Source: Echinometra lucunter (lineage: Eukaryota > Echinodermata > Echinoidea > Camarodonta > Echinometridae). From it: 64,000 nt of DNA. Below, piece by piece: positions 44,712-55,705 of the stretch (within the stretch, counting starts at the first letter, position 1; each line of letters opens with the position of its first letter). The position numbers were made by a program, and so were the translations under genes. Location of the stretch: assembly GCA_029962745.1 (NCBI GenBank), contig CM057156.1, positions 27,470,731 through 27,534,730 on the forward strand. Direction: 5' to 3'. The notes under the pieces were generated by a model that saw nothing but the letters and a program-made list of their open reading frames with translations, did not search any database and was not told the origin of the DNA.

Positions 44712-44966
44712 CCACAAGTAGTCCAGGGACGTCAGGGGAGTAAAAAAAAAAAAAAAAAAAAACGCTAACGCGATTACTCCCCATTGATGTCCAGTGCTTT
44801 TACCCCCTATTTGTACATAGCAAGCATCTTGGCACTTCAAAACAACCCCTGGAAAATGACTTTCCAATGGGCCAATGAGACGACCAGCCTTGTAATTATC
44901 GGCTGTGTCATTACGAATCCGACTGACACTTGGGACTAAAAATCGGACGTACAAAAACCAAAATTT

Positions 44967-45260
44967 CGTAGGTTAGCTGGAAAAACTCACCGCTTGTTTA
45001 CGTTTCTCCGGCGTCCACTGAAGTGAGAAAGAAAATGGCGACTAACTTGTGCATGCGCGACTAGATGCGAGCGATCTTGCAGACATTTTAAAAAAATTTA
45101 CGGCATATCTTGCCGTAAATTTTTTGAAAACATCTGCAAGATCACTCGCATCTAGTCGCGCATCGATGCGTATGCAAAAGTTAGTCGCCATTTTCTATCT
45201 GCATTTCATTGGACACCAGGGACATGTAAACAAGCGGTGAGTTTTTCCAGCTACCCTACG
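44967..45260. mobile_element. Palindrome P3 inserted in the left arm of P1
   Basis: Ends CGTAGGTTAGCTGG and, reverse, CGTAGGGTAGCTGG, then AAAAACTCACCGCTTGTTTA on both sides. The stem continues through TGGCGACTAAC and ATGCGAG.GATCTTGCAGA to a centre near 45107. The right arm of P1 has no counterpart at the corresponding site (near 46030). Confidence 0.88.
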
Positions 45261-46319
45261 ATAGATTTAGATAGCTATAGGATAGCTATCGTGATTTTAT
45301 TCTGATATTACACGATAGCTATAGATTGCTGCTGTGTAGACCGATGTCAACTTGAAAATATTATGCCCCCAAATCACACTTTCTCATGCCCGGTTAACCC
45401 TGCAAACTACCTTCCAAGTTCGCCAGTGGACCAGTCGATCAAACTGTGATATCAGAACCTGAAATTTATTTTTCAAACTCAAAATATCGACTTTTGATTG
45501 ATACAGGATCCTACCTTCTTGTTGATTTCGCCGCTTGATTAATTTCCATTTCAATAGTGCGACCTCCGACATCTACACCCGCTGGTCTCGGACACAGGCG
45601 CTAGGCGAAGCAGCGTTGCACTCTCGCATGTGTCGGCGAACGCAGAGTGCGTGCGAGAGTGCAACGCTGCTTCGCCTAGCGCCTGTGTCCGAGACCAGCG
45701 GGCGTAGATGTCGGAGGTCGCGCTATTGAAATGGAAATTAATCAAGCGGCGAAATCAACAAGAAGGTAGGATCCCGTATCAATCAAAAGTCGATATTTTG
45801 AGTTTGAAAAATAAATTTCAGGTTCTGATATCACAGTTTGATCGACTGGTCCACTGGCGAACTTGGAAGGTAGTTTGCAGGGTTAACCGGGCATGAGAAA
45901 GTGTGATTTGGAGGCATAATATTTTCAAGTTGACATCGGTCTACACAGGGGCCTATGGCAGCAATCTAGCTATCGTGTAATATCAGAATAAAATCACGAT
46001 AGCTATCCTATAGCTAGATTTAGATCTAAATTTCGGTTTTAGTACGTCTGATTTTTAGTCCCAAGTGTCATTCGGGTTCGTGATGACCACAGCCGACAGT
46101 TACAAGGCTGGTGGGTCATTGGCCCATGGGAAAGTGATTTTTCAGGGGTTGTTTCGAAGTGCCAAGATGCTTGCTATGTACAAATAGGGGGTAAAAGCAC
46201 TGGACGTCAATGTAATAGCGTTAGCGTTTTTCTTTTTTTTTTTTACTCCCCTAATGTCCCTGGACTAGCCACAAGGTAAAGACACATGCATGTGGCTGTA
46301 CACACTGCCTTGAGTTTAC

Positions 46320-47230: not shown

Positions 47231-47241
47231 GCGAATTTTTT

Positions 47242-47453
47242 AGTAAGCACTATATAGGTACCAATCCTGCAGACGCAAGCTCATAAATATTCTTAAATAT
47301 TCATAGGATTAGGATTAGGATTAGGATTAGGGTTAGGATTAGGGTTAGGGTTAGGGTTAGGGTTAGGGTTAGGGTTAGGGTTATGGTTAGGATTAGGGTT
47401 AGGATTAGGGTTTCAGCTTGCGTCTGCAGGATTGGTACCTATATAGTGCTTAC
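47242..47453. mobile_element. TIR element with a telomere-like core
   Basis: The 39-bp inverted ends (47243-47281 and 47415-47453) start GTAAGCACTATATAGGTACC and end CTGCAGACGCAAGCT; they appear identical. The element is bounded by CGAATTTTTT on both sides (47232-47241 and 47454-47463), an apparent 10-bp target-site duplication. A short AT spacer is followed by 18 hexamers of TTAGGG/TTAGGA type. No coding capacity. Confidence 0.85.
47305..47412 (+). repeat. Interstitial telomere-like hexamer array (TTAGGG/TTAGGA)
   Basis: About 18 hexamers. A central block of pure GGGTTA units is flanked by a mixture of GGATTA and GGGTTA; one unit reads ATGGTT. TTAGGG is the usual telomere repeat of deuterostomes. 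The array is internal, oriented one way, and enclosed by inverted repeats. Confidence 0.95.
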
Positions 47454-47463
47454 CGAATTTTTT

Positions 47464-47960
47464 TTCCGTACATGGAAACGCAAATCCTCTTTGTGCGCAT
47501 GTGCGTGGACCTTAATTCCATAGGCAATCCACGCAATCCCTTAGACTGTCATGTACGATTCATTGACGATTGTTGGTAGTCTTCGCGCGCAGACCCCATC
47601 GCTTATACTTTTTACGTTCGCGCAGGCACTGATTTTTCTCTCCTTCTCCAATAATGCTCATTCTTTCTCTCTCGCTCTCTCTCTCTCTTTCCAATGTGCT
47701 CGCACTTTCTCTGTCACTCTGTATTAGTACTACTAGTACTTATTTCAAATGTTCTGCTGAGGGCCAGAAAGCCATCAACTACAAGCACAACAAATAAGAT
47801 TGAGGGGAGTCTAACGCTGGAAAAGTATCGAGTCAAAATACTAAATGTATTGCTGAACATATAATTGTATTCCCAAGAGTAAGGAACAGGTATCCCTCGC
47901 ATCACCAGAAGCATACAGGCCTTTTAAAAAAAAAACAACAACAACAGCTTAAACAGCAGA
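47464..47960 (+). repeat. Left arm of a long inverted pair
   Basis: From TTCCGTACATGGAAACGCAA to AACAACAACAACAGCTTAAA. It matches the reverse complement of 55112-55705, including GCGCGCAGACCCCATCGCT, GAGGGCCAGAAAGCCATCAA and GAAAAGTATCGAGTCAAAAT. It contains a TC microsatellite near 47660-47690. The left copy lacks about 60 bp present in the right copy and differs near 47512-47540. Confidence 0.85.
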
Positions 47961-52030: not shown

Positions 52031-52091
52031 CCACTACTACTACTACTTCTGCTACTACTGCTACTATATACTGCTACTACTACTACTGCTG

Positions 52092-52163
<72 letters not shown>

Positions 52164-52218
52164 TTAAGGCTTCAACACTAGGCTACTTCTACCAATAGTA
52201 CTAGTACTACTACTGCTA

Positions 52219-52298
<80 letters not shown>

Positions 52299-52306
52299 TT
52301 ACTACT
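52031..52306 (+). repeat. ACT/CTA trinucleotide microsatellite
   Basis: Two long ACT arrays (about 52031-52163 and 52201-52310) are split by about 35 bp of unique sequence. A poly-Leu open frame over the first is an artefact of the repeat. Confidence 0.95.
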
Positions 52307-53212
52307 ACTTGCACACACCAACAAAAGTTATTGCCATAGCCTATCTTAGAGTTGTAATTTGTATCAAAAGAATGCTTTCGACTTACCAATTCTTTTCAAT
52401 CACCTGCAGTACTAAAAAAACTGTATCCTCCAAACTGCTATAAATTATCCTCTATGGTGGATTGTGTGGCATTGAACACTAAAGTTTGGAACAATAATTA
52501 CTACATAGCAACAAAATAAAAACTAAAAAAAAAAAAAAAAAAAAAAACTTTGCGTGGGTAGAGTGGTCCTATATACTGTTAAATTTGCCTACAGTGGATG
52601 GCAGCAGAGTTATACTTTATTATAGATCTAAGCCTATGTACCTACTTTTTTTGGGGGGGGGGGCTTCGAGCACTAAGAACAATTCTTTGTTTAATTTTAA
52701 TGTCTGTGTAGGTCTTTCTACAATTCTTTGTTTACTCTTAAATTAATGCTGTCATGATTTGTTACCGCACAGATTCATAATTTCAGGTGTCGGATATTTA
52801 CCTTTAAGTGTTTGCATGCATGAATATATTTATGCAGGTTATAGGCCTTTTGGGGTCTGCCCTTCTGCGCTGCTTTGACAAAAGGAAGCAAAGTGACGTG
52901 ACATCTAAATTTCCCTAAATTTTAGTTAATATTTCATATTTCATCTAAAATATGAAAAATGAAGATTTAAATAATTCATTCTTATCATTTATGTTCATTC
53001 ACAAAGTAAAACATATACAGTGATAAAGTGTATATATTTTGAACTAATATTGTTTGTATGATTATAATCATGGAAATGTCATTGTAGACTTACTTCTTTT
53101 GGAAATGAATAAATATGATTTTGACAATTTAAATATGCTTTTCCTCCAGGCCGAATTTTATACATAAACACCTGCTTGTGAGATATGTTAGATCTGTATA
53201 CTATGGTTTGTA

Positions 53213-53308: not shown

Positions 53309-53393
<85 letters not shown>

Positions 53394-53569: not shown

Positions 53570-55110
53570 TACATTTAACGTGTATGTAAGAAGGTCGTTG
53601 GTGGCGGGTTGCTGGTCCCGTGACCTTCACCCAACGAACGTCCTTCTAGTTCTGTGCCTTCACCCCGCTTTCTCCTTTCCTCGATGAGGTTGTATGTAAA
53701 ATTTACTATTTGATGAAATTGTAGTTATGTTTTCTTATTATTGCTGTATCAGAGAGACAAAACTAAGATGGCCATAAGGGAAATGGTTATGTCTAGAGAG
53801 TGAAATATTTGTTGTGAGAAAATGTACATTTTAAGCGATTTATAAATGCATGTTATGTCATGAGAGAGTGTGATGGATTACACATATAAATGCTTTAGTG
53901 TGTATTGGCCAGCGTAGGGCGCATGCATTGGGCACTGTCCGTTGGCCATTTTCGGGTGAAACGTAGTTGGGGTGTTAGGGCGCTATGGACAGTGGAAATG
54001 GGGTTTGGGTCTGAGTTTACGAATGAAATGATTTGAATATGGCCAGAGGTCGACTGCTTTGTTTTATTTGGTAGTTTTATGAGTTATAGAAACTCTTTAT
54101 AAAGCTTTCTCATTATCAAATTAATGTATGGAAACATGGATTATTAATATCAAATTATGTTAATTGAGATAAGCTTTGGAACGTTTTATTATTCAGCTGT
54201 TCCGGACTCTGTTTATATGTTTATTTTATATTAGGAATATTTCCTTGTTAATTGATTGTAATTGAGAACTGCAACTGATATTGTGACCCCGCTTTCTCCT
54301 TTCCTCAGTGGTGAGTCAAGCCTGGAGAAGAAAATAATGACCACTGAACTCTGACTTCAAGCTGTCAATGTCCTTCTGTCTGTGTCTCCGGTGATGTCTG
54401 CCCCATCCATAAGTCCTTACCACTCGGCCCCTTGTAGTCACTAGTCGGCGTGGTGTGTTTGGTTGCACTTTTATAAACGAAAATAAGAGGAAACATCATT
54501 TTAAATTAAATAAATATGAAACTGATGTGGAGATATGCAACCGAACAATCTTAAAGGCATTGGCTAACTTTGTGAGTAGCTGATTTAAAAAATTCTCAAA
54601 CTAAGATGAAACATGTGTATGAGTACTTGTATTTGTACTCAAAAACCCTGAAACTAACAACCATAATTTGGAATGAAAAAGTGTAAGTTAGACGCAAACG
54701 GCGATTTTATTATCCTTCGTCTCACGAGACAATCACTAAGAGGACCATTTTGCTTGAATTTGAAAATGCCGTTATGTCCCTCCCGCCGCGTGATATGCCA
54801 ATACACACAGTACGATAAGGTGAGTCATGCGCACTCCTTATTCTATTCTGTGCAACCGACCCTCGTATATTTTCGAACATTGGTTCATATTTTTTATATT
54901 TAAAAATACTTCCTGTGGATATTATACTTTGAAACTTTCAGACTGGTATTTTGACACTATAACCCTTATGTTTATCCCATTTTCAAGTAACAAAACAAGA
55001 TTTTTTAAAAATCATAATAATGTTAACCATGTCTTTAAGCTGCCTGATTAATCTTATATTCTGCTTTGGCAGAGAAGAGGTACTTTCTGAGCTGCCATCC
55101 TCTTTTTATG
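53570..55110. other. Stretch with a repeated 22-bp motif, no supported gene
   Basis: ACCCCGCTTTCTCCTTTCCTC occurs at about 53663 and 54287, in direct orientation 624 bp apart. The rest is AT-rich. A possible donor (AAG|gtgagt) follows a short open frame at 54817-54819, but no acceptor or homology supports an exon. Confidence 0.4.
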
Positions 55111-55111
55111 T

Positions 55112-55440
55112 TGTTTAAGCTGTTGTTGTTGTTTGTTTTTTGTTAAAGGCCTGTATGTTTCTGGTGGTGTGATGGATAACTGTTCCTTACACTTGGGAAT
55201 ACAATTATATTTTCAACTGTACATTTAGTATTTTGACTCGATACTTTTCCGGCGTTAGACTCCCCTCACTATGTACCACTCGTACAAACAAAATGGATCC
55301 CATAGTTGGTTGAGAGCCAGAATTAAGAGCATTATTTTGTTGCGCTTTTAGTTCATGGCTTTCTGGCCCTCAGCACAACATTTGAAATAAGTACTAGGGG
55401 TAGCACAAATACAGAGGATAGAGAGAGAGTGCGAGCACAT

Positions 55441-55482
<42 letters not shown>

Positions 55483-55705
55483 ATGAGCATTATTGGAGGA
55501 GAGAAAAATCAGTGCCTGCGCGAACGCAACAAGTATCAGCGATGGGGTCTGCGCGCGAAGACTACTAACAATCGTCAATGAGTCGTACTATACGTGACAG
55601 TCTATAGGATTGCGTGGATTGCAGACGGAAAGGTCCAGCAAGAACGAAGTCCCCGCACATGCGCACAAGGAGGATTTGCGTTTCCATGTACGGAAAAAAA
55701 ATCGC
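55112..55705 (-). repeat. Right arm of the long inverted pair
   Basis: Reverse complement of 47464-47960, from AAGCTGTTGTTGTTGT to CCATGTACGGAAAAAAAA. It holds a GA microsatellite (55444-55478) where the left arm has TC, as expected for inverted copies. It has about 60 extra bases near 55275-55340. Confidence 0.85.

Follow-up and report, generated by a model that had tools for sequence, protein, structure and literature searches.

A MITE-like family with a telomere-type hexamer core and the dispersal of interstitial TTAGGG arrays in Echinometra lucunter

A 64,000-nucleotide stretch of Echinometra lucunter DNA (assembly GCA_029962745.1, contig CM057156.1, positions 27,470,731 to 27,534,730 of the forward strand), hereafter called the window, contains a MITE-like element of 213 bp at positions 47242-47454. 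The initial annotation had described near-perfect 39-bp terminal inverted repeats (TIRs) around some 18 TTAGGG/TTAGGA hexamers, and this description was confirmed: the two arms (47243-47281 and 47415-47453, 39 nucleotides each) were 100% complementary, and the hexamer array between them (47304-47412) comprised 18.2 copies with 91% matches. The inverted-repeat element proposed there was real, but its length had been given as 212 bp, one base short of the extent set by the family ends GGTAAGC...GCTTACC, which were obtained from a comparison of 71 genomic copies. The features of the locus are listed below; in the array code, 1 stands for TTAGGG, 2 for TTAGGA, and T for TTATGG.

47233-47241, no strand: left copy of the 9-bp target duplication (TSD), GAATTTTTT (window sequence; length set by the 71-copy comparison)
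47242-47454, plus strand: whole element, 213 bp, with the family ends, the left terminal G being A here (inverted arms, genome copies, family comparison)
47242-47281, plus strand: left TIR, the terminal base followed by 39 exact bp from 47243 (arm complementarity, family comparison)
47282-47303, plus strand: A+T-rich spacer from the left TIR to the array (on the same side in 71 of 71 copies when the G-rich strand is taken as plus)
47304-47412, plus strand: telomere-type hexamer array, code 222121-1111111-T-2121 (tandem-repeat detection, copy comparison)
47415-47454, minus strand: right TIR (arm complementarity, family comparison)
47455-47463, no strand: right copy of the 9-bp TSD, GAATTTTTT (window sequence, 71-copy comparison)
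47457-47958, plus strand: dispersed host repeat with the element inserted at its edge, and the uninterrupted counterpart of the insertion at locus L032 (repeat alignment)
55109-55702, minus strand: inverted paralogue of the host repeat, aligning as two pieces with 83% and 90% identity and lacking the element (repeat alignment)

The flanks of the window copy read GAATTTTTT-A-GTAAGC...GCTTAC-C-GAATTTTTT. The base outside the left arm was G in 68 of the 71 copies and A in the other three, including the window copy, and the base outside the right arm was C in all 71. The family end sequence is of the GGTAAGCAC type, and the 40-bp ends start GGTAAGCACTATATAGG... A 10-bp target duplication, CGAATTTTTT, had been proposed for the window copy; its true length is 9 bp, since the tenth base agreed in only 16 (left) and 15 (right) of the 71 copies, which is about the chance level. 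On the right, the extra C of CGAATTTTTT belongs to the element as its last base; on the left it is a coincidence. Pfam gave zero matches in the ten open frames scanned, out of 34 frames in the window that ran from stop to stop over 110 amino acids or more, and Rfam gave none across the window at the gathering threshold.

The window also holds other repeats. A large near-perfect hairpin with 297-nucleotide arms, 99% complementary and 23 nucleotides apart, lies at 45332-45948, and it is enclosed by 97-nucleotide inverted repeats, 95% complementary, at 44782-46212; the latter structure is perhaps a foldback-type transposon. Long ACT and TAG trinucleotide arrays, which are mutually complementary, are located at 52033-52309 and 53309-53393.

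The initial annotation had suggested that the boundaries are those of a mobile element, in which case a genome search with the 39-bp end was expected to return many copies with the same ends, different flanks, duplications of 9-10 bp, and a variable number of hexamers, and the inverted copy at 55.7 kb might provide an empty site. These expectations were borne out. In the 743-Mb genome, the window element belongs to a MITE-like family whose copies are dispersed. The mitochondrial COX1 of this genome (contig C1884), translated with table 9, has four AAA codons decoded as Asn, and three of them coincide with an Asn in the best-scoring COX1 chain of solved structure; this is consistent with an echinoderm, and flatworms use that table too. 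A search with the whole element, in which 40 of 347 candidates were scored so that its counts are lower bounds, gave at least 123 matches. The exact TIR 20-mer gave 213 matches (105 on the plus and 108 on the minus strand), of which one element can contribute two, and the junction between array and TIR gave 288 matches with at most two mismatches (146 plus, 142 minus); reversed-pattern controls gave 0 for both searches. Among the 20-mer places listed, 76 of 100 had a listed exact junction no more than 300 bp away. Ten of the remaining 24 (nine copies) carried arrays, and the other fourteen loci were read separately: twelve carried an array whose junction was mutated, one (L104) left the family after 36 bp, and one (L111) entered Ns. 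Arrays were therefore present at 98 of the 100 listed exact 20-mer places, and no complete-ended family copy lacking an array was seen among the copies read.

Further comparisons were made with a set of 71 distinct copies, each with both ends within five mismatches and free of N. These copies were retrieved by the window copy or the exact 20-mer and are biased toward well-conserved members, so that apparent youth and duplication quality are shifted upward. Element length ranged from 129 to 249 bp in a table of 58 copies, below the approximately 600 bp used as a criterion for MITEs, and there was no coding capacity. The elements thus have the features by which MITEs are recognized, namely short non-coding sequences, TIRs, a TSD of fixed length, and many near-identical dispersed copies. 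In 64 copies of standard length, the non-array parts differed from the consensus by a mean of 1.7%, and ten were identical to it; with that bias in mind, the family appears to be young, and we claim no absolute date. Two copies lie within about 30 bp of each other at L011 (C21:19560858-19561323), and two others lie a few hundred bp apart at L110 (C5:26012167-26012741), which suggests local clustering of insertions.

Perfect 9-bp TSDs were found in 51 of the 71 copies, 12 copies had one mismatch, four had two, and four had no TSD. TSDs with at most two mismatches were thus present in 67 of 71 copies, whereas 500 shuffles of the flanks gave 1.4 such copies on average and never more than 6; within these 67 pairs, 20 of 603 sites differed. 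All 71 left-hand 9-bp targets were different from one another. Empty sites were also identified. For the L039 copy on contig C1815, a query made of the joined flanks matched eight paralogous sites without interruption over the junction, four on C1815 (97-98%) and four on C21 (93-95%), along with a ninth on C21 at 77%. The site of L039 itself split the query into 1-150 and 142-300, an overlap of exactly 9 bp. In the window, the inverted paralogue at 55109-55702 is without the element, as had been anticipated, and serves as the empty counterpart of two insertions, because the L032 copy is located elsewhere within the same host repeat: where L032 carries its insertion, neither the window nor the paralogue is interrupted, and where the window carries its own, L032 and the paralogue both run on without a break. 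At the window point, left-hand homology extends for only a few bases, since the host repeat begins there.

That a segmental duplication or a subtelomeric block had been copied through the genome was also considered, because the window contains an inverted repeat with the element at its edge. This explanation is contradicted by the 71 distinct targets and by the empty paralogue. In addition, of 94 copies on C1-C11, five were within 1 Mb of a contig end against 5.0 expected, which gives no sign of subtelomeric enrichment, and the copies were somewhat nearer to contig ends than in a uniform distribution (folded KS p = 0.014; unfolded p = 0.08). Since the flanks differ, TSDs are present, and empty sites exist, mobility accounts for the family in preference to segmental copying, which we regard as extremely improbable. 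The ends, duplications, and empty sites show that the family has transposed, and copy number, distinct targets, variable hexamer number, and empty sites all support boundaries of a mobile element.

The array itself was compared among the same copies. It held 3-23 hexamers (median 16) in the 71 copies, the 6-bp phase was kept in 65 of them, and the G-rich strand ran from the A+T-rich spacer toward the right end in all 71. In the 65 in-phase copies, the share of TTAGGG at successive positions from the left edge was 0.02, 0.11, 0.14, 0.81, 0.34, and 0.88. The left start was exactly 222121 in 26 of these arrays and 22 in 51; right ends were 21221 in 18, 21211 in 15, and 2121 in five; and TTATGG was present in 37. 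Of the 65, 56 had a 22212 start or, close to the right end, a 2122/2121 motif, and nine had neither. The concentration of variants at the edges with pure TTAGGG in the center, which had been noted for the window copy, is therefore correct for that copy and is the common pattern in the family. Array length correlated with the longest TTAGGG run (r = 0.66), which indicates that part of the length variation resides in the pure TTAGGG center. A position-specific code common to most copies indicates descent from one array, because independent addition of hexamers would not give such a code. On this comparison of sequences, the array most probably descends from that of a master copy, and we infer that the edge variants represent an old inherited frame around a slippage-prone center.

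These observations bear on the proposal that telomerase or break repair placed TTAGGG into each site independently, the inverted repeats being incidental. All 71 copies examined agree in their ends, spacer, and orientation, the ends being the criterion by which the copies were selected; 9-bp TSDs accompany 67 of the 71, and edge motifs are common to 56 of the 65 in-phase arrays. The common ends and the duplications contradict independent repair for the family, and we consider its chance of being correct to be very slight, although 36 of 100 listed TTAGGG array starts lie outside the family and indicate that other routes exist.

This last figure comes from a survey of pure (TTAGGG)>=4 arrays preceded by a base other than G, for which 277 start places were found in the genome. 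The first 100 listed starts, from C1 to C8 at 2.9 Mb, were classified; four of them fall in one locus at C6:5.42 Mb. Fifty-four of the 100 were within 250 bp of a known family end or junction, and the DNA surrounding the other 46 (43 loci) revealed a further ten family copies, one of which consists of a left half only. The family thus accounts for 64 of the 100 listed pure array starts, or about two thirds. The initial annotation had envisaged a mobile element that could spread telomere seeds around the genome, and this holds as far as the dispersal of TTAGGG arrays is concerned, for those 64 of 100 listed arrays. The residual 36 comprised other dispersed repeats with degenerate TTAGGG, a few longer arrays, a few unclassified cases, and a second TIR family. 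Recurring flanks around TTAGGG tracts that were short or degenerate characterized three groups of dispersed repeats, represented by L129, L131, L137, L140, L142, L145, and L147; by L124, L127, L128, L141, and L150; and by L125, L135, L144, and L152. No inverted ends outside the array were seen enclosing the TTAGGG repeats in seven of these loci that were tested. Longer TTAGGG arrays were located inside chromosome-sized contigs at L157 (C6:5418174-5418909), L155, and L162, and two of them adjoin runs of N; it is possible that these are true telomere sequence or assembly joins.

The second TIR family is exemplified by a 309-bp element at L161:98-406 (C6:23310687-23311212), which has inverted repeats of 73 bp (96%), is flanked by the 8-bp duplication TTACTACG, and contains a 163-nucleotide degenerate core of TTAGGG, TTAGGA, and variants. 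Its end gave 209 genome matches (104 + 105) with at most three mismatches and 0 in the control. Seven copies were read, two from the array survey and five chosen for paired exact ends. They were 279-313 bp long, and all seven had a degenerate TTAGGG/TTAGGA core that was weaker in TTAGGG than that of the first family. Perfect 8-bp duplications were present in five of the seven and not in L166 and L167; because the flanks of L169 and L171 are identical, four of the five are independent. Both families begin with GGTAA, and the duplication length and the rest of the ends differ. Second-family ends approximately 1.8 kb apart at C19:1386958-1388774 and approximately 0.8 kb apart at C1:9097205-9098008 mark possible longer members.

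The presence of such cores in two families with different ends and with TSDs of 9 and 8 bp, together with the lack of array-free first-family copies with complete ends among those read, could mean that the core helps the element, for example through G-quadruplexes, binding of telomere proteins, or drawing in repair. On the other hand, array length spans 3 to 23 hexamers, and presence everywhere also follows from common descent; a functional core is accordingly rated as quite doubtful on the sequences compared.

A transposase gene with the family ends was not found at the 18 MULE loci examined. MULEs have TSDs of about 9-11 bp, and Merlin elements have TSDs of 8-9 bp and GG termini. The 9-bp TSD of the first family falls within both ranges, and its GGTAA terminus fits the GG of Merlin; the 8-bp TSD and GGTAA terminus of the second family likewise fit the TSD range and GG end of Merlin. 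The genome contains 18 loci with the MULE transposase domain (PF10551) and 33 matches to the Merlin, IS1595-type transposase (PF12762). No paired family ends surrounded the transposase at any of the 18 PF10551 loci (1.5-kb flanks, extended to 8-9 kb for four). Only isolated half-matches to the family ends with 4-5 mismatches occurred near these loci, one with four mismatches in L098 and others with up to five in L101-L103, and no two of them flanked the domain as a pair. Four PF10551 loci were also scanned automatically for MULE ends accompanied by 8-10 bp duplications, which yielded one weak candidate (L100), with unlike ends. MULE and Merlin both resemble the family in a TSD range that includes 9 bp, and matches to transposase domains of both kinds are present in this genome. 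The transposase was presumably supplied from elsewhere, and 9 bp fits either MULE or Merlin.

Fusion or the repair of breaks is the usual explanation offered for interstitial telomeric sequences. In E. lucunter, we consider it very probable that interstitial telomeric arrays were instead dispersed by transposition of a MITE-like family with a core acquired once. A transposase from elsewhere would recognize the 40-bp ends (GGTAAGCACTATATAGG...) and make 9-bp staggered cuts. A founder element would have acquired about 17 TTAGGG/TTAGGA hexamers a single time, most likely from telomeric DNA, and its copies would carry the founder array in one orientation, most of them with the recognizable edge code that, like the phase, was observed in the copies. 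Whole hexamers would then have been gained or lost, partly in the pure TTAGGG center, by replication slippage or repair. The failure to find a transposase gene with the family ends at the 18 MULE loci, the four of 71 copies without a TSD, and the nine of 65 in-phase arrays without edge motifs are points against the transposition reading, and a telomeric origin of the core is weakened by the other dispersed repeats of the genome that also hold degenerate TTAGGG tracts.

At the six ends of contigs C1, C2, and C6, the terminal 500 bp contained no telomere array, and the host telomere motif was therefore taken from the literature on Strongylocentrotus purpuratus, whose telomere repeat is TTAGGG (PMC3308324, excerpt). 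By analogy with that species, capture of telomeric DNA would be the likeliest source of the core. Alternatively, the core may be a microsatellite that grew within a MITE by slippage from a TTAGGA-like seed, its match to the telomere arising by chance and not by capture. TTAGGA-rich edges around a TTAGGG-rich center are what slippage in mid-array would give, the core of the second family is also largely TTAGGA and variants, and MITEs with slippage-prone cores are known, such as those with GTCY microsatellites (Coates 2011, cited in PMC6947457, excerpt). However, several hundred hexamer motifs are possible, of which we estimate that few would coincide with that of a telomere, and the motif found is the one reported for S. 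purpuratus in the excerpt cited above; growth from a chance seed is thus unlikely, though well worth bearing in mind. A broader possibility is that this lineage repeatedly takes telomere-type arrays as cores of unrelated small transposons, through an advantage of the core or through insertion into telomeres, that transposition is the main source of interstitial telomeres, and that the arrays are able to template or seed failing telomeres; this we regard as speculative and rather improbable.

Whether interstitial telomeres originate by transposition can be tested in any genome by inspecting the flanks of the arrays. No MITE with a telomere-hexamer core, and no dispersal of telomeric arrays by one, was found in the titles and abstract beginnings of the open-access papers searched. 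Among known transposons, the ciliate TBE/Tec elements have telomere repeats at their termini. The present family resembles them in bearing telomere repeats, which are terminal in TBE/Tec and internal here. Tandem-repeat cores in MITEs are already known (PMC6947457 and PMC5874043, excerpts). The family is like the (GTCY)n-containing insect MITEs (Coates 2011, cited in PMC6947457, excerpt) in being short and non-autonomous with a microsatellite core, like the oyster element CvA (PMC5874043, excerpt) in being a short MITE-like element with a tandem core, and like terMITEs, to judge by the title of that report, in placing a microsatellite or other tandem core inside a short element of MITE type. 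Unlike these three, as far as the cited excerpts and title describe them, its core is the telomere hexamer, so that each transposition plants an interstitial telomeric sequence. In Caenorhabditis elegans, for which 1,229 interstitial telomeric tracts are given, such tracts served as templates for alternative telomere lengthening in telomerase mutants (PMC9071541, excerpt), and by analogy copies of the present family might act in the same way. The E. lucunter arrays resemble those of C. elegans: both are short telomere tracts, degenerate in part, that are spread over the chromosome arms. The same 2022 review states, in the excerpt, that the abundance of these sequences on metazoan chromosome arms remains a mystery (PMC9071541); in contrast to the tracts described there, a vehicle of dispersal has been identified here for 64 of the first 100 listed arrays.
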